Part shown: piece after piece, positions 374 to 48,872 of the stretch | Position numbering within the stretch: the first letter of the stretch is position 1 | Layout: the number at the start of each line of letters is the position of its first letter | Source of the DNA: Ostrinia nubilalis | Lineage: Eukaryota; Arthropoda; Insecta; Lepidoptera; Crambidae | Length of the DNA stretch: 64,000 nt | Direction: 5' to 3' | Assembly: GCF_963855985.1 (NCBI RefSeq) | Contig: NC_087108.1 | Span: 12,852,001-12,916,000, forward strand | The notes under the pieces: model-generated | Databases searched by the model: none | What the model was told of the DNA's origin: nothing | Seen by the model: the letters and a program-made list of their open reading frames with translations, nothing else | Program-made: the position numbers and the translations under genes

Positions 374-449
374 TTATACACACGACGTCAGCTGTATACA
401 TGCGACGTCCGCTGTACAATATACAAGTCGGGTGCTGTACACTGCCGCG

Positions 450-893
450 GTGACGTCACAGTACTCACGGCAGCACAGCACGAGCGGCGCGGCGTGCGTG
501 GGCAGCGCGCAGCCGCGGCACAGCGCGGGCCAGGCGCAGGCGCCGCACCACGCGCCCGCGGTGACGTCACAGTACTCACGGCAGCACAGCACGAGCGGCG
601 CGGCGTGCGTGGGCAGCGCGCAGCCGCGGCACAGCGCGGGCCAGGCGCAGGCGCCGCACCACGCGCCCGCGGTGACGTCACAGTACTCACGGCAGCACAG
701 CACGAGCGGCGCGGCGTGCGTGGGCAGCGCGCAGCCGCGGCACAGCGCGGGCCAGGCGCAGGCGCCGCACCACGCGCCCGCGGTGACGTCACAGTACTCA
801 CGGCAGCACAGCACGAGCGGCGCGGCGTGCGTGGGCAGCGCGCAGCCGCGGCACAGCGCGGGCCAGGCGCAGGCGCCGCACCACGCGCCCAGA
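450..893 (-). repeat. 111-bp tandem array over the exon 21 donor (4 copies)
   Basis: GTGACGTCAC recurs at 450, 561, 672 and 783. On the gene strand each unit is about 87 bases of exon 21 from the WCGACAW codons to the donor, plus about 24 bases of intron. The period is 37 codons and the frame through the whole array is open, so unspliced RNA would encode a 37-residue repeat. Copies look identical by eye. Confidence 0.97.
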
Positions 894-947
894 GGCCCGC
901 TCACCAGCCGCAGCGTGAACGGGAACTCGTAGCCCAGGCTGTCGTCG
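802..947 (-). CDS. Usp32: Usp32 exon 21: Cys-rich block of the peptidase domain
   Basis: Encodes [20 protein letters not shown] and [14 protein letters not shown], matching human DDSMGYQYPFTLRVV and CAWCPWYRFCRGC. The acceptor is GTATACAG; the first donor is CTGCC|GTGAGTACTGTGACGTCAC, phase 1. Three further copies of its last part and donor follow at 111-bp spacing. The next coding exon is not seen before the left edge of the window. Confidence 0.94.
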
Positions 948-3900
948 CTGTATACATTATTATTAAAATTTTATTTATTATTAAAAACTGTAATAAGTCT
1001 TCGACAGTCGACGAGACAATGACGACGTCAGACAGAAATATGGGATTTTTGTGTCATTGAAATTCATTGCAGTGATCCAGATGTCGTCTAGATCAGCGGT
1101 TCCCGAATGGTGGTCCGCGGAACCCTGGGGTTCCGTGGAAAGGCCGCAAGGGTTAAGTAAAAAATATTATCCCACGTTTCGTGACCGACGTTGTTCGCTC
1201 GCATCGACTTGTTTACGCACAAGGGAGGGGCAGGGCGTGCGGGCGGAGTAGTACGGGGGTTCCGCTAGGAAAAGTATAATCAATTAGGGTTCCTTGGCAA
1301 AAAAAATTTGGGAAACCCTGGTCTAGATAAATGCTCGACAAAGGAGTAGAGCACGATAATGTTATCAAAGTAAGATAAATAGTGAATGCGGTCAATCCAA
1401 ACCAGTAGTTGTAGTAGGCGTGGTTCATTGAAGAGTATAATTCCTAAATTACATACACGCGGGCTAACTTGAAGACTACCGGCATTGTATGGTAGGCAGT
1501 AAAGACATCCAAAGGTTGCCACGACAATAATTCTAAAACACGCTAGATTTTTATTTTAAACTCACCAATCAGTGGCATGATTTGACGTTTCGTGCGTAGG
1601 TGGCCTCGCGCTGAGTAGCCTCGAGACCTGTAAGAACGATGGAAGTTATTATTTTCAGTCATTAAAAATGCCAAAACTCTAGGCGAATACTGATTGGACT
1701 TGACTAATATTGAAAAATTGACTTTTGAATTTGTCTTCGCTAACATTCGGAGCCAATAAAACTCAGGTTTGATCAATATTTGATATTATTATAATAATGC
1801 GCCTTATGTACACTGTTCTATGTGCATGTAAGTTTGAAATAAATAAAATAAATGCGAAGGTAAGTAATTTGACAGTAAAAAATAACTATGAAGTTTGAAA
1901 CGTCTGTGATGAAACAATAGCAAATGACATGTACAAGTATTTCGACACAATAAATCTCATTAATGATGGTAAAAATCAGCCAGTACCAGTGAAAGGTTGA
2001 AACCTTTGATTCAAACAAAAGGGAAGATACGGTAAAAGCGTCTCAAATATGTCATGCTTAAATGACGTGGCACGACAGCATTTCTGACAGAACACTCACT
2101 GACAATTTGACATTCGCCATGATGTCAGGGCCTTGTTTTTTCAACAACGTAAGCACATGCCGTATCTTCCCTTTTCATTATACTCTAAGGCAGTCTTTCC
2201 CAAAGTGGGCGATAACGCCCCCTTGTGGGCGCTGCAGGCTTAAAGGAGGGCGGTAAGAGACCCAGAAAAAAAAACGGGACGTTGTTTAGAGGCTTGGGAG
2301 GCTTCATTTACTAGGAGGACTCTTAGACACCGACTGAGCACTCGACACTCGACTACAAATGGGGGCGCTAAAAAGAATTTATTCTCAAAGTGGGCAGTAG
2401 CACAGAATAATAATAAGTACTACGTACAGAAGTTTTACTTCGCGAAGGTATTTAAAAAAATGTATGCTCAATGTCATTAACAATATGGTGTAATCTAGCC
2501 TGTCTCAAGAGTCAAGCACCATTTTGTTGACAAACGTCAGTGATCGGCACTGCGCCGAAGCTATAGGGCTGACTTCGGTAAAATGATGTGACGTGAGGTG
2601 CCAAACTGCGGAAAATGGCGGAGGAAATACATGATTTAGCATGAATTATCATGAATAATATTAACTACATATTTACCTCTCAGTGTCTTGAGGCAACTTA
2701 AAAAGTACATTCTGTGTTTTTATTATTATTTAGGCAGTTAAATACTGCACAGTATTTAGTACCCCATTTTTTTTATTTTCTTCCACCATACACAAGAATA
2801 CGCGTGCGTGAGTCAATGTTCGCTCGTATGTGAGGCCTTGTCGAATAGTATCCTGTAGGTGGGCCATCGTGCGTGTTTTGTTTTCGATGTAAACTCGCGG
2901 AGATGAACAGGCCTGGCAGTAGACAAAATAAGTTCGGGAACCGCTGCTCTAAGGTTACCTGCGTCCAGACGGCGGCGTAGATGTCGCGGCCGCTCATGCC
3001 CTCGCGCAGCCCGACGAGGAGGGGCACGCCGAACAGCGCCGGCTTGCAGCGCTGCGACGACAGGAAGTACGCGTCCATGCGGCACTGCTTCCTGAGGGAC
3101 CATACGGGACTTGACACACTAGTCCAGGGTTTCCCAAACTATGGGTCGCGAGCGAACATTGAGTGGGCCCTGCCTGTAGAACAACACACCACACTACCGA
3201 TCCAACCGCTTGGCAGCGGGCGAAATTTCCTATACTAGGTGGGTCCCGAGTTTGGGAACTTGTATTAGTAGATGCGTTTGGGAACCAGACAACTTTGGGA
3301 ACCACTGCACTAGTCAATGACACATGTTTTTGAGCTGTCAAAACGAGGCTCTCCCATAGATTTTGTGTAGCAAAAACAAACTAAGGTTTACTGTTTATTT
3401 GAAAGATTCATTTTTGCTGCAAAATAGTACTTATTGCAAATTCATAAGACTCTAGCTTATTTTGATGTGTTGTGTGTACCAAAAAATTTTCAGGTGCCGA
3501 AAAACTAGTGGCTTCAGTGATAGTTGCGCGAATGTTTTTTTTAAACTGTGTCTGGCTGTGGTGACAACAAAACAAATATATTTTGAGAGGCAGTTTTTAT
3601 AACAAAAAACCTCATTTACCGTTCATTCTCATTAATTTTTGACAGGATACAAGATTGATTTCTACAATAAATCAATTTGAACAATAATAACATCTATTTC
3701 AACACTCAAGGATCGATCTTAGAAAAACCAGAACACATTTGAAAGAAAATTAAACCTGTAAAGCCCGGTCCATGAGCACGTAGAATTTTGTCCAATGACC
3801 CCAAGCTACCCATCCTTATGGATCGCGCGTAACTATATTGCTGTCGCGACTGTGCGACTGGCACCCGCTGTGAGTGTGCGAGCGCGATAGCAACATAATT

Positions 3901-6900
3901 ACGCGCGAGCGATAAGGATGGGTAGCTTGGGGTCATTGGACAAAATTCTACGTGCTCACAGACCAGACTATAGTAGGCAGACATCCTACACTGACCTGTG
4001 CACTGCGACCAGGTACTGTATCCGTCCGACCTGCACGTGTCCGGTCGGCGCGTCCAGCCCACACATGTTCGAGGGCGACGAGCCGAAGCGCGCCTTGCCC
4101 AGCGCTGGGCTGCCCGGCTTGAGCGTCAATGACCGCACGCTGAGCGTGGGCGAGCCGTTGTCTATGGGTTTTAGAAAAAAAACTTATAAATAGAAAGATC
4201 ATAGACTAAAGTCCAGTCGCCGAGCAGATAGAATTTCGTCCAATGAACCCAAAATACCCATCCTTATCACTCGCACGTAATTATATTGCTGTCGCGCTCG
4301 CACTCACTGCGGCCGCCCGTCGCACAGTCGCGTGATAAGGATGGGTAGCTTTTGGGGTCATTGGACGAAATTCTATCTACTCGGCGACCGGACTTTACAT
4401 TTTGTAGCCCTTTAAGTTATCATCAATAGATCAATTTTATTGTTACCGCGGTCTCATGGAACCGCTTCGGATTCCACGAGATAGCAAAACTATTTTCGCT
4501 CTAATTAAATTTAAATTATTGAACCCAGTGCCGTTGAAGCTCCGACAGTTTCCGTAAAAACTCGAGCATGAGTGACGTTACAATGTCTAATCTTTCTCAT
4601 TGTAAAAAACATATTTTTCGTCACTTTAAATAGAAACCATTGACACTGTACTATCAAGAAATCATTTTGTGACGTCATATCACAAGCATGGCGATCAATC
4701 GTGACGCGTTCGTGTTCACGGGATCTTTTTCAGTTTTTAAATTAATTGAAGAAACATTTTTAAAAAGTTTTTGCATAGACTACAAACATACAATTTTAAA
4801 AATACATTAAAAACGCAGGCCGCTACCAATCGATCAACATGGAAAGCATTGGGGAAGGCCTATGTTCAGCAGTGGCTATCCTATGGCTATGGCTGAAATG
4901 ATGATGAAATTAAAAATGATTTTTTTTTTCAAATACCCATTTCTCTCCGAAGCTCCCTAGGTAGCGTCCGACTGCGCGGGTCCCTACAGGCCTCCTCCGT
5001 GGCGTCGGGCCCATCAGGCCCGTCGGTCGCATCGGGCCCGTCGGCCGCGTCGGGCCTGCTGTAGAAGGCTGAAGGGGGACTCTGCGACATGAGGATCTCG
5101 GAGCGCGATCTCTGGAAGGGCGGGGCGTTAGTATGTTATTGTTGAACGGACAGGGAGAGCTGGCTCGTTGAAAAAGAAATTATGTACTTTTAGGAGTATT
5201 TTTAAAAGATATACACTGGCCATCATAAAAATCGACCCACCCGCGACAAGCACTTTCAAACGTATGCATCCTCACTTCCCACCAATATTACTATACTATA
5301 TTACTATACTATATTACCATTTAAAAGCCTAGTTCTAAACTTCATTTCATTAAAGGAAAAGTTTTTACCCCAAAAATGTGTCTGTAGAAGAATCCAGAGT
5401 CACTTCTTCAAAAAATAGGTAGTTACGCTTGAGCCAACTTTTATGGCTATAAAACTGTTAAGTTGGGATTAATCGCTATCCATCTGTTAAAGAGGACACG
5501 TGAGATCATTATTTGGTTTTATAACCATAAAAATTGGTCTAATTGATCCCAGAGGTGAGCCCAAAGTGAGGTCTTTTTTCAAGTTTTTCAAGTCACATTT
5601 ATTGTATATGTTATCGTTTATTAGGAAATGCAATGTGTTTTTCTTTAAGGATATTTATTGGGCTTTCAAATGACACCAATATTGTTGGGGCACCATGATT
5701 GTGTCAGTAGAAACGAGTTTTCCTGTAAAACGTAGGTGGGCCGGTTTTTGTGATGACCAGTATAGAAACGATGTAAGTAATTTTAGAGGTATTTTCAAAA
5801 GATAAATACTTGTACTAACTTTCGATAAACAACATGGCTACTCCGATACGCTGTTTACGTAGTTTCAAGTTTATCACCGTCGCTCATGCTCGCATCTCGC
5901 TTGGCAAGAGAGGGAAGGCGACATTCGAAACTACGGATAACGTTTATCAGAGTAACCTTACAGTATCGTAATTATTTTTAACATAGCTTTTCAACGAAAG
6001 ACCATTATTTTAATCAGCCACCGAATTACAGTGGTAACTAGATGTGACGGATGATTAAATTGCATCTTAGCTTGCACTTATCACTAAATTCCAAATTGAC
6101 TATTTATGAAGTGAAAAAGTTAAGTTTGCAAACAAGGGACATTACTTGAAGTTATGATTAAAAATTGTGACTAATTAGTTGATGTACGAACCAGCTCAAG
6201 TTTTTATAAGACTAAATGCCCGTAACCTATACAAAAATCTACCTTTCTACTATACACAAAATAGCCTACACACAGCATAGCAGGAGGAATATTTCCACAA
6301 ATCAAAAACAAACAATGGGTGGATGATCGGATGATTTTATCTACAGTTCTAACTACTGATGTTTCAAGACAAGTCCAAATACCTACCGATCGCTATATGT
6401 CTGCCTCGTTCTATTAGAGTACTAAAATGCTTTCATGCATACTTTGTAAGATCAAAAGAACACACATAGAACGATTCAGTGGTAAATTCAATTCGTTGAA
6501 TGCAGAATTTCGACAATCAGGGGTGATTCACACAGGAGGGATGAAGAATGCAACAAAATCGCGGGTTCGAAGCGAGATAAAGCGAAGCTATTTCACATTT
6601 GAGCATTATAAAAAGGCTTGAGTACAATATGATTTAAACAAGGTTTTTGAGATTTTGTCGCTTTTTTCATCGTTCATGTGTGAACCAACATTTTTTTTAC
6701 TACAAAACAATGAAAACTTCAATAATAACGAAACACCAAACAAATACATTTCAAAATCGTGTATCAGACTTGAACAGGATAGAATGATGTGTGTAAGAGA
6801 TTTTTGTACTGTAATTTCAACCAACAAAATGTTATGAAAGTCTACTTTGGAACTATGTACAAAAGTTACAGTGAGTTGGACGTTTACTTACTGGGTCCCA

Positions 6901-9900: not shown

Positions 9901-12900
9901 ATATATACTAATTTTTTTATCATGTTTTTAATGAATTGATGATAATACTGCGCCATTATTATTTATTGTTGCTGGAAACCCATTGAGTGATTTAGTGTCT
10001 GTCAAGACTATACATTTATTTTTTCCATTGAAAATTGATAAGAATTTTCCCCTGAGACCCATTTCTAAATGAGATGAAGATGTTGCCTATTTAAAAGCAA
10101 AAAAGTGCTTTCTTTAAGGGTAGTTAATGATACAGCCTTAGATTAATAAAACCTAGATGGATAGTCTTCATACAAACGCTTCGTCAAGAGTGAGGCAAAA
10201 ATCTTATGTCATTAGTGTCAATTTTGTTGGGGAGTGTAGACAGTGAAGGCGATTTTCCCGAAAGTAGGAAAATTTTTAATACGTTTTTAATTATTTTATA
10301 ACTAACAAAAACAAAACGCATCATGTACTTACTTATTTATTGAATTCAAAGTACCTACCTGATTACAATAAGATAAATCGACTTAAAAGTCTAGATTTCA
10401 TAAAAAAGGAAGTGTATTTGTACGGCGAACAATTGGAAAATAAATTTTCTTGTTACTGGTATCATTCCCGTATTTAATTTTTGAAAGCCAAATTCAGGCA
10501 AAATACGCGTCGAATCGTAGTACTTACTTATGAAATGTAACACTGGTCACTTTCTTTAGTTTTTCTGATGTATTTAGACACCCTTTCACAGCACAAACCG
10601 TCTTAATTAATTAAAAGTCGTCGGACGTGTTTACCAATTTTTCACTTTGACAGTTCATGTGACGTTTACGAGTAAGCCATTCTGGCTCACTAAAATCTGC
10701 CTCACCTTTCGTGCACTGACTATCTATCTAGGTTTTATTAATCTAAGGGGGGGGGGCTCACCGGGCACGCAGGGCGCGTGGTGCGGCGCGGGTAGTGGCG
10801 GCGGCAGCTCGTAGGCATACAGCTGCATGGCCCGCGCGGGGCACACCTTGTGGCCGTCCTCCAGGACACGCCCGATGGTCGCGCCGCTCAGCTCCACCAG
10901 CAGCATCCTGGGGACGCACAAACATCATCAGGCTTGACCCTGGAGTACACGTTTCAATGGCCCTGGAGGACACCGTCGGGTTTTAGTAGGTAAAAGAGTC
11001 CTACATAACTCACTGACTGTCCCCATTGGCCAGTGCATTTACCGACGCAAAAAAGGAGCATACAGTAGAGGGCAAAAATCCTGTCTCGCGGTGTGAGCGA
11101 GGCTTGCCCCAATACGTGCGATATTTACGATCGCGGGGTGGTGTGTGCTTGAATACGAGAGAGAGAGAGTCGTACACCAGCAAAGTGCGGAGTTAACTCC
11201 ATCGGGTTCGAGCTTCTTTATCAAAATTGGAACAAATTCTCCAAGTAATTTTACAATTTCTGTGTTCCATCTGGGACTTGATGGAATTCTAACCAGCATC
11301 CTAAATCGTTTAATTCTCTAAATGTTTATGCATGGAGTTATTTTATCTATTCAAATCTACTATATAAAAATAAGCCGGTTTTCCTTCCTGACGCTATAAC
11401 TCCAGAACGCACGAACCGATTTCCATGGTCTCGGGCTCCGTGAGGTTTTATAGCCTATAATATAATGTAGTCCACGCGGGCGAAGCCGCGGGCGGGAAGC
11501 TAGTTATAACTAAAATATAAGCTAAAGTTAGTCATAAGACAATGTACATTGAAAAAATGTCTGACAAAAAATGAAAACGAACAAAAGTAGAAGTTTGTGA
11601 ACTCACGAGTCAGGCTCCAGCCCGCACAGTTTCGCCAGCTTCTGCTTGAGGTCCAGGTACGTGCCCTCCGAGTGCACGCGCACGCCGTACTTCACCGGCA
11701 CCGAGCCGTCCAGCAGGATCACTGCAAGCAAACACTTTACTATCAAGCGGCGCTCGGGGCGGAGCGGCGAACGCGAACAATGCTCGCGAGCATACGTTCG
11801 CGATCTTTTGACTCTAGTAACTTGCTAATAGAGTTGGACTTGGGGCCACGAAGGGTAAGCTCCTGTCACTCGTCAGTGACGCCAACTAAGGAATGCAAAA
11901 TACAGTAGCCCTCATCATTTATACAGTCTGCTGTGTGTTTCTATCGTCACACGAATTAAGGCAATTTTGGGTTTATATCAATGGCACTTTTTGCATAAAG
12001 TGTCAACAAGAAAGACAAGTCGATTATTTTGTTTTCTTTCTTCCTTATTGTATGAGTGTTTTCGTCCAAAATGTGATGACTTATGGTTCGGAAACGTGTA
12101 TTCTCACTATAGGCCTTATACAGAAGTTGCACAGCGTGCTATGGAGAGGGCTATGCTCGGTGTTTCTTTACGAGATCGAATCAGAAATGAGGAGATCCGT
12201 AAACGAACTAAAGTCGCTGACATAGCCCGACGGATTAGCAAGCTGAAGTGGCAATGGGCAGCGCACATAGTACGCAGAACTGACGGTCGATGGGGCAGCA
12301 AGGTTCTGGAGTGGAGGCCGCGTACCGGAAAACGCAGGGTGGGACGTCCACCCACAAGGTGGACCGACGACATCATAAAGGTAGCAGGAAGGCGCTGGAC
12401 GCAGGCCGCTACCAACCGGGCAACATGGAAAGCATTGGGGTAGGTCTATGTTCAGCAGTGGACGTCCTATAGCTGATCCCATGATGATGATGTATGAGTG
12501 AAGGTGACGGAGTGTAGCGTGACGGAGTGTAGCGTGACGGAGTGTAGCGTGACGGAGTGTAGCGTGACGGAGTGTAGCGTGACGTACCTCGCACCTCGGC
12601 GCGCACGATGGACTCCATGGGCAGCGGCAGGCTGAGCATGTTGAAGGAGTGTAGCGTGACGGAGTGTAGCGTGACGGAGTGTAGCGTGACGGAGTGTAGC
12701 GTGACGGAGTGTAGCGTGACGGAGTGTAGCGTGACGGAGTGTAGCGTGACGGAGTGTAGCGTGACGTACCTCGCACCTCGGCGCGCACGATGGACTCCAT
12801 GGGCAGCGGCAGGCTGAGCATGTTGAAGGAGTGTAGCGTGACGGAGTGTAGCGTGACGGAGTGTAGCGTGACGGAGTGTAGCGTGACGGAGTGTAGCGTG

Positions 12901-15900
12901 ACGTACCTCGCACCTCGGCGCGCACGATGGACTCCATGGGCAGCGGCAGGCTGAGCATGTTGAAGGAGTGTAGCGTGACGGAGTGTAGCGTGACGGAGTG
13001 TAGCGTGACGGAGTGTAGCGTGACGGAGTGTAGCGTGACGTACCTCGCACCTCGGCGCGCACGATGGACTCCATGGGCAGCGGCAGGCTGAGCATGTTGA
13101 AGGAGTGTAGCGTGACGGAGTGTAGCGTGACGGAGTGTAACGTGACGGAGTGTAGCGTGACGTACCTCGCACCTCGGCGCGCACGATGGACTCCATGGGC
13201 AGCGGCAGGCTGAGCATGTTGAAGGAGTGTAGCGTGACGGAGTGTAGCGTGACGGAGTGTAGCGTGACGGAGTGTAGCGTGACGTACCTCGCACCTCGGC
13301 GCGGACGATGGACTCCATGGGCAGCGGCAGGCTGAGCATGTTGAAGGAGTGTAGCGTGACGGAGTGTAGCGTGACGGAGTGTAGCGTGACGGAGTGTAGC
13401 GTGACGGAGTGTAGCGTGACGGAGTGTAGCGTGACGGAGTGTAGCGTGACGGAGTGTAGCGTGACGGAGTGTAGCGTGACGTACCTCGCACCTCGGCGCG
13501 CACGATGGACTCCATGGGCAGCGGCAGGCTGAGCATGTTGAAGGAGTGTAGCGTGACGGAGTGTAGCGTGACGGAGTGTAGCGTGACGGAGTGTAGCGTG
13601 ACGGAGTGTAGCGTGACGTACCTCGCACCTCGGCGCGCACGATGGACTCCATGGGCAGCGGCAGGCTGAGCATGTTGAAGGAGTGTAGCGTGACGGAGTG
13701 TAGCGTGACGGAGTGTAGCGTGACGGAGTGTAGCGTGACGTACCTCGCACCTCGGCGCGCACGATGGACTCCATGGGCAGCGGCAGGCTGAGCATGTTGA
13801 AGGAGTGTAGCGTGACGGAGTGTAGCGTGACGGAGTGTAGCGTGACGGAGTGTAGCGTGACGGAGTGTAGCGTGACGGAGTGTAGCGTGACGTACCTCGC
13901 ACCTCGGCGCGCACGATGGACTCCATGGGCAGCGGCAGGCTGAGCATGTTGAAGGAGTGTAGCGTGACGGAGTGTAGCGTGACGGAGTGTAGCGTGACGG
14001 AGTGTAGCGTGACGGAGTGTAGCGTGACGGAGTGTAGCGTGACGGAGTGTAGCGTGACGGAGTGTAGCGTGACGTACCTCGCACCTCGGCGCGCACGATG
14101 GACTCCATGGGCAGCGGCAGGCTGAGCATGTTGAAGGAGTGTAGCGTGACGGAGTGTAGCGTGACGGAGTGTAGCGTGACGGAGTGTAGCGTGACGGAGT
14201 GTAGCGTGACGTACCTCGCACCTCGGCGCGCACGATGGACTCCATGGGCAGCGGCAGGCTGAGCATGTTGAAGGAGTGTAGCGTGACGGAGTGTAGCGTG
14301 ACGGAGTGTAGCGTGACGGAGTGTAGCGTGACGGAGTGTAGCGTGACGTACCTCGCACCTCGGCGCGCACGATGGACTCCATGGGCAGCGGCAGGCTGAG
14401 CATGTTGAAGGAGTGTAGCGTGACGGAGTGTAGCGTGACGGAGTGTAGCGTGACGGAGTGTAGCGTGACGGAGTGTAACGTGACGGAGTGTAGCGTGACG
14501 TACCTCGCACCTCGGCGCGCACGATGGACTCCATGGGCAGCGGCAGGCTGAGCATGTTGAAGGAGTGTAGCGTGACGGAGTGTAGCGTGACGGAGTGTAG
14601 CGTGACGGAGTGTAGCGTGACGGAGTGTAGCGTGACGTACCTCGCACCTCGGCGCGGACGATGGACTCCATGGGCAGCGGCAGGCTGAGCATGTTGAAGG
14701 AGTGTAGCGTGACGGAGTGTAGCGTGACGGAGTGTAGCGTGACGGAGTGTAGCGTGACGGAGTGTAGCGTGACGGAGTGTAGCGTGACGGAGTGTAGCGT
14801 GACGGAGTGTAGCGTGACGTACCTCGCACCTCGGCGCGCACGATGGACTCCATGGGCAGCGGCAGGCTGAGCATGTTGAAGGAGTGTAGCGTGACGGAGT
14901 GTAGCGTGACGGAGTGTAGCGTGACGGAGTGTAGCGTGACGGAGTGTAGCGTGACGTACCTCGCACCTCGGCGCGCACGATGGACTCCATGGGCAGCGGC
15001 AGGCTGAGCATGTTGAAGGAGTGTAGCGTGACGGAGTGTAGCGTGACGGAGTGTAGCGTGACGGAGTGTAGCGTGACGTACCTCGCACCTCGGCGCGCAC
15101 GATGGACTCCATGGGCAGCGGCAGGCTGAGCATGTTGAAGGAGTGTAGCGTGACGGAGTGTAGCGTGACGGAGTGTAGCGTGACGGAGTGTAGCGTGACG
15201 GAGTGTAGCGTGACGGAGTGTAGCGTGACGGAGTGTAGCGTGACGGAGTGTAGCGTGACGTACCTCGCACCTCGGCGCGCACGATGGACTCCATGGGCAG
15301 CGGCAGGCTGAGCATGTTGAAGGAGTGTAGCGTGACGGAGTGTAGCGTGACGGAGTGTAGCGTGACGGAGTGTAGCGTGACGGAGTGTAGCGTGACGTAC
15401 CTCGCACCTCGGCGCGCACGATGGACTCCATGGGCAGCGGCAGGCTGAGCATGTTGAAGGAGTGTAGCGTGACGGAGTGTAGCGTGACGGAGTGTAGCGT
15501 GACGGAGTGTAGCGTGACGGAGTGTAGCGTGACGTACCTCGCACCTCGGCGCGCACGATGGACTCCATGGGCAGCGGCAGGCTGAGCATGTTGAAGGAGT
15601 GTAGCGTGACGGAGTGTAGCGTGACGGAGTGTAACGTGACGGAGTGTAGCGTGACGTACCTCGCACCTCGGCGCGCACGATGGACTCCATGGGCAGCGGC
15701 AGGCTGAGCATGTTGAAGGAGTGTAGCGTGACGGAGTGTAGCGTGACGGAGTGTAGCGTGACGGAGTGTAGCGTGACGGAGTGTAGCGTGACGGAGTGTA
15801 GCGTGACGTACCTCGCACCTCGGCGCGCACGATGGACTCCATGGGCAGCGGCAGGCTGAGCATGTTGAAGGAGTGTAGCGTGACGGAGTGTAGCGTGACG

Positions 15901-18900
15901 GAGTGTAGCGTGACGGAGTGTAGCGTGACGGAGTGTAGCGTGACGGAGTGTAGCGTGACGGAGTGTAGCGTGACGTACCTCGCACCTCGGCGCGCACGAT
16001 GGACTCCATGGGCAGCGGCAGGCTGAGCATGTTGAAGGAGTGTAGCGTGACGGAGTGTAGCGTGACGGAGTGTAGCGTGACGGAGTGTAGCGTGACGGAG
16101 TGTAGCGTGACGGAGTGTAGCGTGACGGAGTGTAGCGTGACGTACCTCGCACCTCGGCGCGCACGATGGACTCCATGGGCAGCGGCAGGCTGAGCATGTT
16201 GAAGGAGTGTAGCGTGACGGAGTGTAGCGTGACGGAGTGTAGCGTGACGGAGTGTAGCGTGACGGAGTGTAGCGTGACGGAGTGTAGCGTGACGGAGTGT
16301 AGCGTGACGGAGTGTAGCGTGACGTACCTCGCACCTCGGCGCGCACGATGGACTCCATGGGCAGCGGCAGGCTGAGCATGTTGAAGGAGTCGAAGCGCAC
16401 GGAGTCGCGCGAGCACGTCACGCATCGGACACGGGACTTGAGTTGGCCACAGAACAGCTCCGTTAGGATTGACTGGTTGCGCGCCGTATACGCCGCCCAT
16501 GACTCTGCTGCCACCACCTGTAAGCAGACATAAACTTTATAACGGGTAAATATAAAGGTTGCAGGTGATCCGAACGGCGCAGTACTGTACTATACGTCAC
16601 AGTAACTGGATCGCGCTGCGCGAGTTCGCGCACTCCTGGCACACGATCAGGCGAAGTTATGAGAAGAAGTGATGACATTTATCAACGATAGCAGCCCGAC
16701 GCGAAGTACCGTATTTGTGGTGTCAAGCCCCAGAAGGGGGAGAATTGACTATGAGAAGGGACATGGATCAGATAAATTTGTAGGGAGTCAAGCAAAGCGC
16801 CCGGGGAAAAGAGCCCAGAGCAAGTACCCGCGCGCTCTCCCGAGATTCGGTTCGTACGCCGTGAGGCAGGAAGAACCATGGGTGGTGGTGTACTATACGT
16901 CACACTCATAGCGAAAGACGCTGCACAGAAGTGATGTGCGTCACGACAACGCAGAGCTAGCGCCGCGACGGGAGACGGTGACGTTCGAAAGATGATAGTG
17001 GGGGGGCTTTAGTCAAGTCAACGTCACTGACCTGGTCGATGACAAACCTTTTTTTGTCACCTGTCATCCGCTTTGCAACGGAGTCGAACCTTAACTTCGA
17101 ACTCCTATGTTCTTCAAATTAATTTCGTTGCGGGTCCAATCCAATGACAGTTTAATTTTCCCCCGTGACAAACATGACTTTCATTGGTTGGGTTTTTATT
17201 GGCGGTCATGTTGTAAATCCTGGCTACACAGGAGTTGCAGTGGTGGGAAAGAGAGGTGGGAATAGTCCCGTTTGACCTGGTCGGCCAGCAGCTCCCGCGC
17301 GTGTGACGTTACTGACCTGGTCGGGCAGCAGCCCGCGCGTGACGTCACTGACCTGGTCGGGGCGGCCGTCGGAGTCGGCGGGGGCGGGTGCGGCGGGCGG
17401 GGGCGCGGCGCGGTTGAGGTCCTCGTGCAGCGCGTCCAGCAGCCAGGCCAGCAGCCCGCGCGTGACGTCACTGACCTGGTCGGGGCGGCCGTCGGAGTCG
17501 GCGGGGGCGGGTGAGGCGGGCGGGGGCGCGGCGCGGTTGAGGTCCTCGTGCAGCGCGTCCAGCAGCCAGGCCAGCAGCCCGCGCGTGACGTCACTGACCT
17601 GGTCGGGGCGGCCGTCGGAGTCGGCGGGGGCGGGTGAGGCGGGCGGGGGCGCGGCGCGGTTGAGGTCCTCGTGCAGCGCGTCCAGCAGCCAGGCCAGCAG
17701 CCCGCGCGTGACGTCACTGACCTGGTCGGGGCGGCCGTCGGAGTCGGCGGGGGCGGGTGAGGCGGGCGGGGGCGCGGCGCGGTTGAGGTCCTCGTGCAGC
17801 GCGTCCAGCAGCCAGGCCAGCAGCCCGCGCGTGACGTCACTGACCTGGTCGGGGCGGCCGTCGGAGTCGGCGGGGGCGGGTGAGGCGGGCGGGGGCGCGG
17901 CGCGGTTGAGGTCCTCGTGCAGCGCGTCCAGCAGCCAGGCCAGCAGCCCGCGCGTGACGTCACTGACCTGGTCGGGGCGGCCGTCGGAGTCGGCGGGGGC
18001 GGGTGAGGCGGGCGGGGGCGCGGCGCGGTTGAGGTCCTCGTGCAGCGCGTCCAGCAGCCAGGCCAGCAGCCCGCGCGTGACGTCACTGACCTGGTCGGGG
18101 CGGCCGTCGGAGTCGGCGGGGGCGGGTGAGGCGGGCGGGGGCGCGGCGCGGTTGAGGTCCTCGTGCAGCGCGTCCAGCAGCCAGGCCAGCAGCTCCTGCG
18201 CGTCGTGCTGGCCGCCGCCCGCCAGCGCGCGCGCGTGCCGCGACACCACCCAGCGCACGCGCAGCGGCGCCACCGAGCGCGCGCTGCACGACCACACCTG
18301 ACACAAAAGATACATAGTCACAGAATTTTTTCTTTTTTTTATGTGACTGGAGGCAAACGAGCAGACGGATCACCTGATGGTAAGTGATTACCGTCGCCCA
18401 TAGACACCCGTAGTCCTAGGAGCGTTACAGGTGTGTTGCCGGCCTTTAAGACGATCTCTTCTTGAAAGTTTACGTAATGATATCAAATCATAAACGCAAT
18501 CGAAGCCTTAAAGCTTCAGCCAAACCAACCCGTTCAGCTTACAACTGCGTTAGCGTGCACGATAGAGATCAAATGTCGTGTACAAACTGTGTCAATGTGT
18601 TCACATTGACACATTCTGTCATTCGACGCAGCGTCCAATAAAATGTCTGCGCACGATTTCATTTTGACGATTCTGATTTTAAAATGGCGGAGGTTTTTCA
18701 TGGTGAACGTCTGGAATGCGAACGCGGCAGGGTAAACAAGTTTTGCAAGCGCAATGATCACTATCGCAAATGCAGACTGAGCGCATTAGTTTGACCGAAG
18801 CTGTGATAGTAATCACAGTGTCTTCAAACTCAAGTAGAATAATTTTAATACAATAAAATTTTGTGCGACGTATTGTTTATGGAATAAACACTAAAGAAAT

Positions 18901-21900
18901 AATTTATAAAGACAAATAAAACAAAAAAGGCGACAATACATCTAATCTACTAAATCTCTTTTAATCGTGAGTATTCAGTTTTATCAAAAAAAGTAAAATT
19001 GACAATTTCTCGAATGTTTTGACTTACCTCCTTGCAGAGCTCTCCGAACCGCAACGCGAGGGCTCCTTTAGTCCCCAGGGGATTAGCGGTATTCAACTCA
19101 TACATGTGCATGCCAGAGTTGAAGTACTGTGTGAGAGGTCCCGTGTTCCATACCTGTACATAATAAGTTGGAGATTTTAGTTATGCTGTCTACCTAGAAA
19201 CTTGAAAACAAACAGTTAACCTGAGCTCAACGCAAATAAATATCAATTACGGGTGATTGATTCTCGCTTGACTACTTTTCAATTTGACATGTAAAAAAAG
19301 GAAACGTGTTGTTAATATATTGGCTGAGGCTGTAACCTTATCTACGAGTATTATCACGTCACGTTTTTGATTGACATATTCGTAGGTGTCTGACAACATA
19401 TTCTCCAAGAACGGATTAACCCTATCTACGAGTATTATAACACGTTACTGACAGACATAGGCATGTAAAAATATCTAAGTACGGTGCAGCTTACCGACTG
19501 TAGCGCCGCATTCATGAAGCAGGTATTGCCGAGGTTGTGAAGACCAGTGGCGCCCGGCAAGTTGGGCGCGATCAGCGTCTCGCGTCTCTCCGTCGCACGG
19601 GACCCACTGAGGAATAAACACGATATTATAGGATAGTGTAGACATACGAGTAGTGCGGCGTGGCCAGTAGGCCTAGGATGCGCGCCGTGATAAGCTTTTT
19701 TCACGCCGTTTTATCGATAAGCCCATACATTTTTCATCTAAAATCATCGATAAAATTTTATCACAGCGCGTATCTTAGCCCAGAAGGGCCGAATTAACTT
19801 GATGGTTACTCTACCCAGTTGCCTAGAGGCTCCACACTAACCTTTTTTGAAGATGAAAATGGCCCCCATTTTGAAACCGTAACCTGTAAACGGGTGAAGG
19901 GCCCTGAGGCAATCCTCAGCCTATGGGTCCCGACAGGGTAAATCCAACCCGCATACTTGCGCTTGAGATGTGCGTTGTGTTTGTCTAAATCCTCCATAGA
20001 GAAGTTCACATCAAGCAATAGGCTGCAGCCGAGGTTACAGTGGGTGAAGACTGCGAAAGAAAAAAGAGATTGCGAATGGGCGCAGTCTGCGCGTGGCTGC
20101 AAAGTGCAGGTGGGGTGGACTGCAAGTAGGTGCAAACTGCGTCAGGGGCAGCCTGTGAACGGTATCGGGCCAGCGGGTGCAGCTTGGCCGCTCGACGCCT
20201 GCGACCCACGTGAGCGCCGTGATCTCCTCGGGCCAGGTGAGGTCGGGGTTGCGCCGCTCGAGCGGCAGGCGGCGGCGGCGGGGCCTGTGTGACTCACGTG
20301 AGCGCCGTGATCTCCTCGGGCCAGGTGAGGTCGGGGTTGCGCCGCTCGAGCGGCAGGCGGCGGCGGCGGGGCCTGTGTGACTCACGTGAGCGCCGTGATC
20401 TCCTCGGGCCAGGTGAGGTCGGGGTTGCGCCGCTCGAGCGGCAGGCGGCGGCGGCGGGGCCTGTGTGACTCACGTGAGCGCCGTGATCTCCTCGGGCCAG
20501 GTGAGGTCGGGGTTGCGCCGCTCGAGCGGCAGGCGGCGGCGGCGGGGCCTGTGTGACTCACGTGAGCGCCGTAATCTCCTCGGGCCAGGTGAGGTCGGGG
20601 TTGCGCAGCTCGAGCAGCAGACGGCGCGCGTCAAGACGTAGCTCGTGCAGCGCGGGCCGCTCGTCGTCCAGCAGCACAGCATTGGCTCCGAGTGCCCACA
20701 GGCGGACGTCTTCCCGAGCAAGCCCCAGCGCTGCGCACAGGAACTCGCTCACCTGCACACCAATGTCATGCTTACAAAACTGTTCTAAGTCTGGATCGAA
20801 TCTCATGATTGGGAAAATAGTGTTGTTTTTTATATCTATTCGTATATTTAATCGACGCAGATAAACAACCAATACACACATACACACACACACACACACA
20901 TTCTTTTGCACAATAACACTTAATATTGAACAGAACTATGTAACTAATTATTTATTTTAATTTTATTTTATTTTATTCGGAAAACCAACAGCAATACAAT
21001 ACAAATAATGGGACCATAAATTATGTATCTGCTTAGCCATTTATAGGTAATCGCAAATGGAAGTTAAGATGCAAATAGACCATATGCCATAGCAGACATT
21101 TATAGAATTTACAAGTGAAAACTTAACAGTCAACAATACTTTTTAAGCGCCGCTGGAGTGGGAGTCGAAAAAGTTTGAATTGAATAATTTATTTATAAGT
21201 AGTGGGTTTCGTTCGAAATAATTCTAGATCTAAGGTTTATTAATAATTGTATACATCTATGGAAGAGCGGACCCTCCAAACACAGGCATTTTTTGCTTAA
21301 ATGGAGGTTCCAATCTACTTATTAACTAAAGAAACCTTGTAAACGAATTTTTTTTTTCTGCGGGCACGATACTGGCGACGGCCGAGCAATGAGCGGAGCG
21401 ACGCGATGCGCAGCGGTGACGATGAGAAATAGTATTGCCATCGCCCCGCCCCGCCGCCTTTGAGCCACGGCCTCACAAAAAACCGGCGTGAAGCAGCGCT
21501 TGCGCTGTGTTTCGCCGAGTGAGTGAGGATACCGGAGGCCCAATTGGGGGGGAATGGGATTTAAAAGGTTGACAGCGCACTTGTGACTTCACTGATGTTG
21601 CGGGTGTACATGGGCGACGGCAATTGCTTACCATCAGGTGATCCGTCTGCTCGTTTGCCTCCTATCACATAAAAAAAAAAGAGCCCCCGTTCGAGCTACT
21701 GGAACGCTGCCACGAAATTCTAATCGACCAGCAGATCAAGCGCCGCAAGTGGAACTGGATTGGCCACATTCTCCGAAGGGACCCCGATCACATCCCTAAG
21801 CAGGCTCTGGATTGGAATCCCCAAGGAAAACGCAAACGTGGTCGCCCCAGGCAAACTTGGCGGCGCACTGTAGCGGACGCTGCGAAGAAGATCGGCAAGA

Positions 21901-27900: not shown

Positions 27901-28797
27901 GATGGGTCTGGGTGTTAATATGTATAATAAGTTTGTATTTACAAAAAAAAATGTATTTAAGTATGTTTATATCCGTTTTCTAGTGAGCGGACACTGTGAA
28001 TGTACGTCACGCGGGGTCACGTGACCGTCGGCGGCACTCAATATTTAAGCGAACTTTGAATGCCTATAAAATCATAACTACTGGGTATTTTTGAATGAAA
28101 TAAAAACGAATGTATTTGTAAATGTAAAAGCCTAACTGTAACATAGGTTTCAAGTGATTTTGCATACCTAGTAACATTCTCAATTTTATTAAAATCCAAT
28201 GTTATTAAACATACCTTGTTGAACATGTCAGAAACACTTTTTTGGATTACAATCTAGATTAAAACTGTATTTATTGTTGGTTGTACCTTGTTGATTGTAC
28301 TCTGTATGTGTTTTTTGTACAAATAAAATAAAATAAAATGCCTAAGATATGGGAGTGGCACCGGAGGAGTGACATTGACATATTATGATACTAGCTTTCC
28401 GCCCGCGGCTTCGCCCGCGTGGAATTTTGACTGTCACAGAAAAACTTTATCGCGCGCGTCCCTGTTTCAAAAACCGGGATAAAAACTATCCTATGTTCTT
28501 TCCCGGGACTCAAACTATCTCTATGCCAAATTTCATCAAAATCGGTTGCGAGGTTTAAGCGGGAAAGCGTAACAGACAGACAGACAGACAGAGTTACTTT
28601 CGCATTTATAATATTACTAGCTTTCCGCCCGCGGCTTCGCCCGCGTGGAATTTTGTCTGTCACAGAAAAACTTTATCGCGCGCGTCCCTGTTTCAAAAAC
28701 CGGGATAAAAACTATCCTATGTTCTTTCCCGGGACTCAAACTATCTCTATGCCAAATTTCATCAAAATCGGTTGCGAGGTTTAAGCGGGAAAGCGTA

Positions 28798-28838
<41 letters not shown>

Positions 28839-31800
28839 GTTACTTTCGCATTTATAATATTAGTTAGGATAGTTGGGATGAAAGAGCATATAAATCTGAA
28901 GTCTAGCTGACGTTTGACGTTACAGAAACACCCTCCCGTGCCGCTCCCATACCCCAGGCAGTGACTAATTTAAGCACTCTAAAAACGTGGGATGTACAGC
29001 GTCTACAATATTTTGCATAAAAGAAAGAAATATTGCATGAACTAAGTTTAGGTAACTTACTTTGCGTATTCGGCACGTGCCTTAAAATCTTCAGTTGCAG
29101 AGGATATAGCTCAAGTTCAACGTCTGAATTCGGTGGCCTTATGACCTGAAAAGAAATGTCATTTTTAGACTGAAGAATTACTAGCGTGACGTATACGTAC
29201 AGTGACAAAAATGTAAACACTTCGTAAAGAAGGGCCTCCATTAAAATGCGAGCGTCCGCGCGAATTTCTACGGAGGCCCTTATTCCCGTGTCCTAAGGTG
29301 TACATTCCGCTGACCTGTCTCGGCAGCGGGTCGGGCACCAGCTCGAAGTCACGGTGCCGCGCCATCGAGGACCTTATGTACAATCCCCTGACCTGTCTCG
29401 GCAGCGGGTCGGGCCCGCCGTACCACAGCGCGAGCGCGCGCCACAGCGCGTCGGGCACGAGCTCGAAGTCGCGATGCCGCGCCAGCGAGGGCCTTATTCC
29501 TATGTGTTAAGGTGTACATTCCCCTGACCTGTCTCGGAAGCGGGTCGGGCCCGCCGTACCACAGCGCGAGCGCGCGCCACAGCGCGTCGGGCACGAGCTC
29601 GAAGACGCGGTGCCGCGCCAGCGAGGACCTTATTCCTACGTATTAAGGTGTACAATCCCCTGACCTGTCTCGGCAGCGGGTCGGGCCCGCCGTACCACAG
29701 CGCGAGCGCGCGCCACAGCGCGTCGGGCACCAGCTCGAAGTCGCGATGCTGCGCCAGCGAGACCCTTATTCCTATGTGTTAAGGTGTACAATCCCCTGAC
29801 CTGTCTCGGCAGCGGGTCGGGCCCGAGCTCGAAGACGCGGTCCCGCGCCAGCGAGACCCTTATTCCTATGTATTAAGGTGTACATTCCGCTGACCTGTCT
29901 CGGCAGCGGGTCGGGCCCGCCGTACCACAGCGCGAGCGCGCGCCACAGCGCGTCGGGCACGAGCTCGAAGTCGCGATGCTGCGCCAGCGAGGCCCTTATT
30001 CCTATGTATTAAGGTGTACATTCCGCTGACCTGTCTCGGCAGCGGGTCGGGCCCGCCGTACCACAGCGCGAGCGCGCGCCACAGCGCGTCGGGCACGAGC
30101 TCGAAGTCGCGATGCTGCGCCAGCGAGGCCCTTATTCCTATGTATTAAGGTGTACATTCCGCTGACCTGTCTCGGCAGCGGGTCGGGCCCGCCGTACCAC
30201 AGCGCGAGCGCGCGCCACAGCGCGTCGGGCACGAGCTCGAAGTCGCGATGCTGCGCCAGCGAGGCCCTTATTCCTATGTATTAAGGTGTACATTCCGCTG
30301 ACCTGTCTCGGCAGCGGGTCGGGCCCGCCGTACCACAGCGCGAGCGCGCGCCACAGCGCGTCGGGCACGAGCTCGAAGTCGCGATGCTGCGCCAGCGAGG
30401 CCCTTATTCCTATGTATTAAGGTGTACATTCCGCTGACCTGTCTCGGCAGCGGGTCGGGCCCGCCGTACCACAGCGCGAGCGCGCGCCACAGCGCGTCGG
30501 GCACGAGCTCGAAGTCGCGATGCTGCGCCAGCGAGGCCCTTATTCCTATGTATTAAGGTGTACATTCCGCTGACCTGTCTCGGCAGCGGGTCGGGCCCGC
30601 CGTACCACAGCGCGAGCGCACGCCACAGCGCGTCGGGCACGAGCTCGAAGTCGCGGTGCTGCGCCAGCGTCACGTCACGTCGCAAGTGACCACCCTCGCC
30701 CGTCAGTGTCCGGACCTGCCAAACATACTAGTTGGTATCACACGAGCAAAGAACAGAGACGAAGAATTATACGATCGCGCCGTGATAATAACACACACCA
30801 GGCAGGTGTGCGTGGACATTTTTCGCTCCCGTTATTATTCATCGACGAAAGCGAAATTAGACGGAAAGCTTTCCCGCCGCGGCCGTAAGTGTGGTTTCGC
30901 TTGTCATTTTTTACTTTCTATAAATGAGTCCTTAGTTCCTGACTGCCTTCCTGCCAACTACAAGTTATTGCCTCGTGTATCATAGGTGTGACTTCTATCC
31001 AACCTTGTGCTTTAAAAATGCAGTGTCTTTCGTGCAAAAGGGCCAAAGACCACATTCGTCCATCCGTTTCCACATGAAATCGTCACGGTCGCCACCTTCA
31101 TTTGCATAGTACCAAAGGACGTTGGCATGCGATGGTGGTCGGTGGCCCGTTTTCGCGGAACCTGGTACCTTGAGCGTGTTGGGAGCTAAGAGCCGCTTGT
31201 TGTCGACGGGCCCGGGGTGCGGCGGCGGGCGGGCGGCGGCGGCGCTGCTGACGCCGCTGCTGCTGGCGCTGCCGACAGAGGCCGTGTCCGCGCGCCACAG
31301 GAGCGACCCCATCGACTCTGCGGAGGAGGGAGAAGTTGTTAGTTGGGCCGTATTGGTTGGGTTTGCCTTGACATATGTAACAAACAATCTGCCAGAGGCA
31401 AGCAACCACTGAAGAATAAATGTGATTCAAGTCAAACCCTATGTCAGTTCCGAAATAAGTGCCAATTAAGTTATCGTTTCCTTGAGCACACACAAAGAGC
31501 CACCTCGTAGAATTGGGAGGTGACAAAATTGTCCACGGTGCGTGTCTCGTAAAATAGTCGACATTGTCAAAACTAGAATGCTTCAAAAAATAATAACAAT
31601 AGTGAGGGTTGTCATTAATTACGTCGATGTCACTCACCCGTAGTTACAGGCCGCTAACCGGCCAATCTGGAAATCATTGGGGGAGACCTATGTTTAGCAG
31701 TGGACGTCCAATGGCTGAAATGATGATGATGAGGATGACTCACCCGTGGAGTTGCTGGTGAAGCTCTCGTCGCACACGATGGCGTCGTCGAGCTGGCGCG

Positions 31801-34800
31801 GGCTGTGTGCGCCAGCCTGGTGACGTCACTCACCCGTGGAGTTGCTGGTGAAGCTCTCGTCGCACACGATGGCGTCGTCGAGCTGGCGCGGGCTGTGTGC
31901 GCCAGCCTGGTGACGTCACTCACCCGTGGAGTTGCTGGTGAAGCTCTCGTCGCACACGATGGCCTCGTCGAGCTGGCGCGGGCTGTGTGCGCCAGCCTGG
32001 TGACGTCACTCACCCGTGGAGTTGCTGGTGAAGCTCTCGTCGCACACGATGGCGTCGTCGAGCTGGCGCGGGCTGTGTGCGCCAGCCTGGTGACGTCACT
32101 CACCCGTGGAGTTGCTGGTGAAGCTCTCGTCGCACACGATGGCCTCGTCGAGCTGGCGCGGCGCGGCGCGGCAGCAGCCCTCGGCGCCGCCGGCTGTGTG
32201 CGCCAGCCACGCGCTCCACCACTCGGCGCCCACCAGGTACCAGAATTGCCCCACCGAGTATCCCCGCTGGACTTCCCGCCGGAGCCATCCCAGCACTGAA
32301 ACGGGTAGAGAAAGAACAATGAATTACAGGTTCATATGAAACAGAGTAGGCGCACACCGTCGATTTTTCGTCGGCCGATAGTTTAGTCGGGCAGTTGATC
32401 AGTATGGGCATGTATGGGAGTGCGCACACTACGCCGATTCGATTTGGCCGATTCTTCATACAATTTAAAACCGGGCACAACTATCAGCCAACTAAAAATC
32501 AACGGTGTGCGCCTACTCTTAAGACAACAAGGAAGCATTGCAGTATGTCCCTGAAAATTCTGCACCATAGCTGAGTCACCAAGGTTCTCGACGCCGACTC
32601 ATTGGAGGGTTGAGCCAGATTCCGTGCTTTTAAGAGCATTATTTTTTACAACCCAACAGATTTGCAAACGGTTTTGAACCATTCGAAATGTCAATTAATT
32701 TGATATTATTTAAATAATAATAATAAATAATAAATAAATCTTTGGACAATTTCACACAGCGCCAGCTAGCCCCAAAGTAAGCAACTTAATGCTTGTGTTA
32801 TGGGTGCTAGCTTAACGGATATACTACTTATATACTTTTTTTTTTTTTTTTAAATACATACATATTATACATAGTCACACCCAGACCCGTCACAGAAATT
32901 AAAATTCATCATTTCAATTTCTGCCCGGCCGGGAATCGAACCCGGGACCTCTCGGCATAGTAGTCCGTTCTGAACCACTACACCAAACGGCCGACTATTG
33001 ATCGAAAAGACAGACAAAATAATTTATGAGTCCATCAAATCAAAATACTTTGACGTATATTATCGATCTCACGTTACATACACTACTCAGAAATAATAGT
33101 GAGTGAGCATTTATACACAACTTATTTTACATAATACAAACTACGAATTTTGGAACTAGGCTAGAGATAATTGTAAAAACTAGATGTAGGATAATGGGAC
33201 AACTCTATTTCAAACGGACTACATTGTCTCAGTCATTACTGATTTTATGAATGCCATTATGAGTGCAGTTAGGGGTGTCAAAATTGATAAAGGTTTATAG
33301 AATCGTCATTTTTTTTGTAAAGTGCTTAATAATATGGCTTCACTATTGTATGAGAAGCTGGTACAATATGACTTTCTCCAAGAGACGTTATATGGTCGCC
33401 TTTTTATCTAAATTACTTTAAAAAACTAACCTTGTATTTAATTTTAGGCCAGTCTAGGTAATCAGTTATGCAAATTACTATTTACGCTACGTCTATCTAT
33501 ACAGATATCGTTGCGATAAACGACGCACCGACGACGATATTCGTTCCAATTACTAAAGATAAACTTGATTGCCTATAATTACTCTAAACACTCGAGTATT
33601 CTACTAACTGTGCAGATAAGTGTTCGATGAATTTGAACTTTAAGTACATAAAAATAAGGGGTATAAGCTGTATATGTCTCAATAAGTCAGTACGAAGGCA
33701 AGTGCGATAAGTGATAAGAATTGGCTGCGAACGTATTTGTTGAACTATGTCTTAAAGGACGTTGCACTGTCTTTGCTACGTTGGATTACGAACTGAGAGA
33801 AAAATAACATTCCTCCTTGTGATGTGTTATGTAAATATGTACATATTTATGTCAGTTTTAAGTACTTATATTATTGCGTTTGAAACAAAGTATTTTCAAA
33901 TAGTAGGTCTCATTTGCCTGTCTATTTTTTAAATAATCTAACAGTACGTTTTTCTCTTCAACAACATTAATATTTTGGGCGCCATTTGCAATAATTATAG
34001 TAATATTGGCATTGAAATACAGACTTAAATAGATCTACTTGATTTCAAGTAGTTTCAGCTAATTATATCAAATATCAGTAGGAAAGTTTCACGTTGATAA
34101 TGAGGATTTCACTTATTGTAGACATATCTTCAGGGTTGCCTGTATTAAAATATCACAATGACAAATTAGAATTTGACACCAGCTGACAATTCTGTTGTAA
34201 AAGCGCATAATAGATAATACAAAAATACAAACAAGAAAAAACTGCAAAAACAAGTGAAAAGCGATAACACACAAAAAAGAAAGTTGAGATATCGTCCATC
34301 GTTTTATATTCGCTGATAACGGAGCACAATGCTATGATAATGCGCTAGATAACTTAGGGCAGCCCTACCACATCCATGTCAAGCTTGTGACACTGGTACA
34401 CATAGATAATTATGTTTATTCTCGCATTAAAATCAACAGGGCGCTAATTTTAGAACGCCGTAATGGCTGTTTCGCGAAGGTGTTTTTTAGTTTTTATTGT
34501 ACAACAAAACGTTTAATTGGGTAGTCTATGCTAGTGTTAGTACTCGTTATTCCGCTAACCTGGCATGCACAGTCACGTTTTTCATTTAAGAAAATGGTTA
34601 CGTTTGAGGTCAGAGGTTGGGATTGAATTCATACGGATACAAAACAATACATTTTAATAGGTTTTTTTTTTTTTTTTTTTTTTATGTGATAGGAGGCAAA
34701 CGAGCAAACGGATCACCTGATGGTAAGTGATTACCGTCGCCCATAGACACCCGCAGACCCAGGGGCGTTAGAGGTGCGTTGCCGGCCTTTAAGGTAAAGA

Positions 34801-48631: not shown

Positions 48632-48872
48632 CTAGCTTTCCGCCCGCGCGCGGGCCGCGGCTTTGCCCGCGTGGAATTGTGTCTGTCACAGAAAAACCTT
48701 ATCGCGCGCGTCTCTGTTTCAAAAACCGGGATAAAAACTATCCTATGTCCTTTCCCGGGACTCAAACTATCTCTATGCCAAATTTCATCAAAATCGCTTC
48801 AGTGGTTTAGGCGTGAAAGCGTGACAGACAGACAGACGGACAGACAGAGTTACTTTCGCATTTATAATATTA
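48632..48872 (-). mobile_element. Helitron-like element
   Basis: Same family as 28391-28862: CTAG plus GC-rich hairpin at the left, GACAGACAGAC and CGCATTTATAATATTA at the right. Confidence 0.7.

Follow-up and report, generated by a model that had tools for sequence, protein, structure and literature searches.

Why should six exons of a single gene each end in a tandem array that runs across the 5' splice site (donor)? The question is raised by a 64,000-nucleotide (nt) stretch of the Ostrinia nubilalis genome (the window), in which a preliminary description had placed such arrays at exons 4, 6, 9, 12, 13, and 21 of a Usp32 gene; we keep its exon numbers. The gene was first recognized with pieces of human USP32 as the query, and its identity and exons rest on tblastn, Pfam, and protein comparisons. 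The gene and the six exons concerned are as follows.

802 to 47187, minus strand: USP32 ortholog, 21 exons mapped in the window.
802 to 947, minus strand: exon 21 (exon copy).
16328 to 16517, minus strand: exon 13.
18091 to 18297, minus strand: exon 12.
20562 to 20752, minus strand: exon 9.
30575 to 30715, minus strand: exon 6.
32104 to 32295, minus strand: exon 4.

The piece spanning exons 4 to 14 matched the Pfam families DUSP and UCH as well as the solved catalytic domains of USP15 and USP4; the EF-hand exon was placed by tblastn alone. The two domains and the collinearity with USP32 proteins make the gene a member of the USP32 group. Lepidopteran proteins confirm this identity, the highest identity among the best 120 of 832 matches being to Ostrinia furnacalis LOC114361131 (98% over the best local stretch, which is 21% of the query). 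Later exons lie past the left edge of the window, and the first exons are not among the 21 mapped. If every array is spliced at its first donor, the 21 exons give 1003 codons in one frame with no stops. Each junction between them is in frame and has a single intron, so that the gene can be read without invoking a new one.

Arrays were found at 6 of the 21 mapped donors, and no acceptor lies inside any of them, as the preliminary description had claimed. Every array starts in the exon, crosses its donor, and stops in the intron, and the head-to-tail unit consists of the exon's own end, the donor, and a short piece of intron.

445 to 890, minus strand: array A1, exon 21 donor; 4 identical copies of a 111-bp unit, in frame and open.
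12504 to 16385, minus strand: array A2, exon 13 donor; 26 copies, each about 60 bp of exon end, the donor, and CTACACTCCGTCACG 15-mers.
17273 to 18203, minus strand: array A3, exon 12 donor; 123-bp unit, 7 copies plus two decayed partial units.
20203 to 20626, minus strand: array A4, exon 9 donor; 88-bp unit, 5 donor copies.
29273 to 30669, minus strand: array A5, exon 6 donor; 136-bp unit, 11 donor copies.
31738 to 32161, minus strand: array A6, exon 4 donor; 90-bp unit, 5 donor copies.

In total there are 60 donor copies, with 4 to 26 per array (5 at exon 4; 11 at exon 6, located with an exact 10-mer; 5 at exon 9; 9 at exon 12, two of them in the decayed units; 26 at exon 13; and 4 at exon 21), mostly 88 to 197 nt apart. 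TRF called them at 445 to 890 (111 bp, 4.0 copies), 12671 to 16405 (variable period), 17273/17326 to 18203 (123 bp, 7.1 copies), 20203 to 20626 (88 bp, 4.8 copies), 29377 to 30669 (136 bp plus shortened units), and 31738 to 32161 (90 bp, 4.7 copies); beyond these calls, the exon-13 array continues to 12504, and decayed sequence carries the exon-6 array on to 29273. The GC content of the units is 0.62 to 0.78. Such head-to-tail units, tens to hundreds of base pairs long and highly identical, are those of a minisatellite (VNTR), and copy number differs between genomes in the array that could be compared, that of exon 12.

The arrays differ in their state of preservation. The four identical copies at exon 21 presumably make that array the youngest. 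Within A2, the number of CTACACTCCGTCACG 15-mers behind the donor varies between copies. The intronic copies of A4 have two amino acid changes in common (L to P and L to R), and its last donor copy reads GTGGGT; the intronic copies of A6 lack 31 bp of exon sequence. Distal copies of A5, which occupies almost the whole intron before exon 7, are diverged or internally deleted, and internally deleted units are found at the far ends of both the exon-6 and the exon-12 arrays.

A self-BLAST of 18 of the 21 exons (all but 2b, 7, and 16; plus or minus 300 bp) against the surrounding 5 kb found the exon's own junction copied nearby at these six exons and at none of the other 12. Among the matches listed (the best six per exon; exons 4, 6, 12, and 13 had more), none lay over an acceptor; three other exons had matches located outside the exon. 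In the window as a whole, TRF gave seven distinct arrays with a score of at least 500, namely, the six donor arrays and a duplication in intron 7. The latter lies wholly within the intron, and thus large tandem repeats are not fully absent from introns. This duplication and other repeats in the window are listed here.

28389 to 28818: TE-like 226-bp tandem duplication in intron 7, 1.9 copies, 99% identical, with a 92% relative at 48655 to 48870.
31638 to 31737 and 12402 to 12492: copies of one (ATC)n-bearing dispersed repeat, within about 12 nt of which the exon-4 and exon-13 arrays end; more partial copies lie near 4.9, 9.5, 36.8, and 54.6 kb.
38126 to 41670: LTR-type element with 351-bp direct repeats (100% identical) around an 890-codon minus-strand open frame; it has the appearance of a recent intronic insertion.
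34734 to 36251, minus strand: 506-codon open frame that by eye resembles a non-LTR reverse transcriptase.

It had also been claimed that the arrays are not placed by chance. We reduced each array to one copy (with rough ends at 12480 and 29230 for two of them) and slid segments of 90 to 136 bp along the result. Segments that covered a donor only made up 5.6% of all placements, rising to 23% at a GC content of at least 0.60, 28% at 0.65 or above, and 32% at 0.70 or above. The probability that six of six would be donor only is therefore 3e-8 overall and 1.6e-4, 5e-4, and 1.2e-3, respectively, at the three GC thresholds. The claim thus survives matching for GC content, and the same values (1.6e-4 to 1.2e-3) count against GC bias as the full cause; by itself it accounts for only part of the placement. 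Segments over acceptors have lower GC content than those over donors, and the share of donors versus acceptors is 0.58 to 0.69, giving 0.04 to 0.11 for six of six (0.62^6 = 0.06 at a GC content of at least 0.65). The donor-versus-acceptor contrast is by itself weaker than the donor-only placement.

A further factor, not raised in the preliminary description, is survivorship: as long as splicing uses the first donor, a duplication over a donor does almost no harm, unlike a duplication within an exon. If selection also removes placements in exon interiors and over acceptors, leaving those over donors and in introns, the probability of six of six calculated from these fractions is about 0.002 to 0.10. 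Survivorship and GC bias together account for much of the placement, but not clearly all of it.

On balance, we lean toward the view that GC-rich minisatellites are born recurrently in this gene and are kept where the first donor still gives the normal exon. Local tandem duplications arising in the GC-rich exon ends of the USP32 gene would seed the arrays wherever they cover an exon-donor junction, and the arrays would then grow and homogenize by unequal exchange or conversion. Duplications within exons or at acceptors would mostly be removed, because they change the protein, whereas those over a donor would survive, with the spliceosome continuing to use the first (exon-proximal) copy and the later copies becoming intron. 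That GC-rich segments favor donors over acceptors (0.62 at a GC content of at least 0.65) counts for this explanation, as do the identical copies of A1 and the divergence in A5, which rises with distance from the exon.

The explanation depends on which donor is used. Reading through to the second copy at exons 4, 6, 9, and 13 adds 1, 11, 9, and 7 stops, respectively, to the joined frame, so that, as far as the second copy goes, the first donor is needed at at least four exons. At exons 4, 6, 9, and 12 the exon copy retains its coding sequence while the intronic copies decay. Both results bear on the idea that the arrays are functional, either because alternative copies make protein isoforms or because many donors secure splicing. 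Exons 12 and 21 would suit such a role, since their periods (123 and 111 bp) are divisible by 3 and splicing at the second copy adds no stops; also, the O. furnacalis gene model, itself a prediction, reads all eight of its exon-12 copies as coding, through to the last. However, three of six periods divisible by 3 is near the two expected, and additional exon-12 copies would fall inside the Pfam UCH match (residues 283 to 455 of the searched piece, in which exon 12 ends at 411). Since second donors give a stop or a frameshift at four of the six exons and the intronic copies have lost coding sequence, the suggestion that there is selection for many donors found no support, and we consider a function of this kind unlikely.

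The O. furnacalis model with eight coding exon-12 copies counts against first-donor use, whereas the single copy of the exon-13 end in the same protein is as first-donor use predicts. In mammalian systems, the intron-proximal of two strong donors is often favored, which would disfavor the first copy.

O. furnacalis also bears on how the arrays change. The exon-12 array has seven copies in the window and eight in the O. furnacalis protein. The S type accounts for six of the seven, including the exon copy, and the A type for the last one; in O. furnacalis all eight are of the A type. This is as exchange among copies predicts, and the pattern fits an exchange that included the exon itself.

Assembly error would also explain arrays of identical copies, and long arrays are hard to assemble; the copies of A1 are indeed identical. 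However, individual copies in A2 to A6 are marked by variants, and the exon-12 array of O. furnacalis, located on a separate 11.4-kb contig, has a different copy number, so that this array is not an assembly error. The comparison between assemblies covers the exon-12 array only; a search with the exon-21 region gave eight proteins, none named Ostrinia. Overall, we consider an artifact very improbable.

Other moths were surveyed through three protein searches, which together listed 222 proteins (the best 120 of 832 matches, an overlapping best 120 of 488, and all 8 of the third); each protein was scanned for tandem copies, whether in frame or frame-shifted. Six proteins had such copies, all of them among the 16 labeled lepidopteran by name (the other 206 include proteins with no name, and some of these may be lepidopteran); the shifted-frame scan gave no matches in 120 shuffled proteins. 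In four of the six, which are annotated moth USP32 proteins, the copies are of exon ends: exon 12 in O. furnacalis, exon 12 in Chilo suppressalis (three copies), two other places in Operophtera brumata, and exon 19 in Scirpophaga incertulas. Two repeats were not counted, that of Plutella, which sits within an exon, and that of Colias, a short repeat in the tail behind exon 21. That the unit includes the donor can be read directly in O. furnacalis and at one of the Operophtera places; the donor could not be decoded in Chilo or at the other Operophtera place. At the readable Operophtera place, two reading frames give the DNA as GTCGTG followed across the boundary by GTAAGTGTCAC; the exon lies beyond the window, and its end is inferred. 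Thus, a check of related species, as had been proposed, does find tandem exon-end copies in other moths, but restriction to the donor side fared less well: the Scirpophaga copy spans the whole exon, which bears against it, and its unit may include the acceptor too.

Though the six arrays are separate and all lie over donors at GC-rich exon ends, as originally described, their units are not wholly unrelated. The pentamer GTCAC lies within the first 25 nt of the intron at five of the six array donors (all but exon 6) and at none of the 15 others, a score reached by 4 of 5000 random relabelings over all 5-mers. The 10-mer GTGACGTCAC lies behind three array donors, and the decoded Operophtera donor, GTAAGTGTCAC, likewise carries GTCAC. 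Moreover, in three arrays the last copy exits the repeat 3 to 7 nt behind its donor (A4, 20202 to 20220; A6, 31737 to 31754; A3, 17273 to 17286). We had considered GTGACGTCAC as an excision footprint but dropped this, because three arrays share the 10-mer. Viral contigs scanned with GTGAGTGACGTCAC gave 75 stretches, which we take to be chance matches.

The association with GTCAC is not predicted by survivorship of minisatellites and counts against it. It points instead to the main rival, in which mutation is aimed at donors: slowing of the polymerase at TGACGTCA or GTCAC behind the donor, or an R-loop or break at the exon-donor junction, would start the duplication, and position would be set by mutation rather than by survival. 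The sharing of GTGACGTCAC by three array donors, the sequence of the Operophtera donor, and the exits close behind the last donor are all in its favor. So is the abundance of the palindrome TGACGTCA, which occurs 10 times in the window after the arrays are reduced, three of these at arrays, versus 1.0 expected from an order-2 Markov model (about 10-fold). According to the available text of PMC8973881, TGACGTCA, GCGCGCGC, and a GTCA-containing quasi-palindrome are among the motifs with extreme polymerase kinetics.

Several points weaken this rival. Exon 6 lacks GTCAC, and the pentamer was spotted by looking, although the relabeling covers the choice of 5-mer. TGACGTCA occurs at seven single sites outside the arrays (4670, 8743, 25549, 37700, 48955, 53290, and 61582), with unlike flanks and no array. 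Because other 8-mers are equally or more enriched, among them three palindromes with four occurrences each, the excess of TGACGTCA by itself proves little. The kinetics in PMC8973881, as its available text describes them, are those of the polymerase used in SMRT sequencing, are seen in amplified DNA too, and may take the form of slowing or acceleration at the palindrome; a link from them to duplication is our inference. We regard donor-aimed mutation as possible, if on the improbable side; it would be the more novel result. A still more tentative extension is that moths have a recurrent process that duplicates exon-donor junctions specifically, begun at GTCAC or TGACGTCA behind the donor, with exon ends a standing source of intronic minisatellites that feed changes back to the exon. 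Should donors prove to be targeted across the whole genome, this would amount to a duplication process triggered by sequence.

Whichever process starts them, the arrays are a natural experiment in the choice of the spliceosome among 4 to 26 near-identical donors. They point to a safe site for the birth of minisatellites in genes, and the S/A difference at exon 12 suggests that arrays can rewrite their exon of origin. Gene predictions are already affected, as the four annotated moth USP32 proteins with tandem exon-end copies attest.

We found no such arrays in the literature on arrays at donors or exon boundaries, minisatellites, TGACGTCA, and lepidopteran tandem repeats, as judged from titles and the starts of abstracts in a corpus that excludes most subscription journals. 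Three known systems come near, as far as their available texts describe them. The gene-altering variable minisatellites of De Grassi and Ciccarelli (2009, PMC2812944) are likewise intragenic tandem units whose copy number varies, there between paralogs, and slippage and unequal crossover are the processes named. However, they occur in exons, introns, UTRs, and noncoding transcripts, and their units average 30 bp, whereas here six arrays lie in one gene, all over donors. In intron gain by tandem duplication with a proto-splice site (Lehmann et al., 2010, PMC2891723), an exon duplication is likewise made harmless by splicing; there a new intron comes from an exonic duplication, whereas here an existing donor appears to have been duplicated and an existing intron lengthened, with up to 26 copies. 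The competing 5' splice sites of DOK7 intron 4 (PMC5585400) likewise present several donors to one acceptor, but there two dissimilar sites are separated by 11 nt, whereas the arrays of the USP32 ortholog present 4 to 26 near-identical ones.
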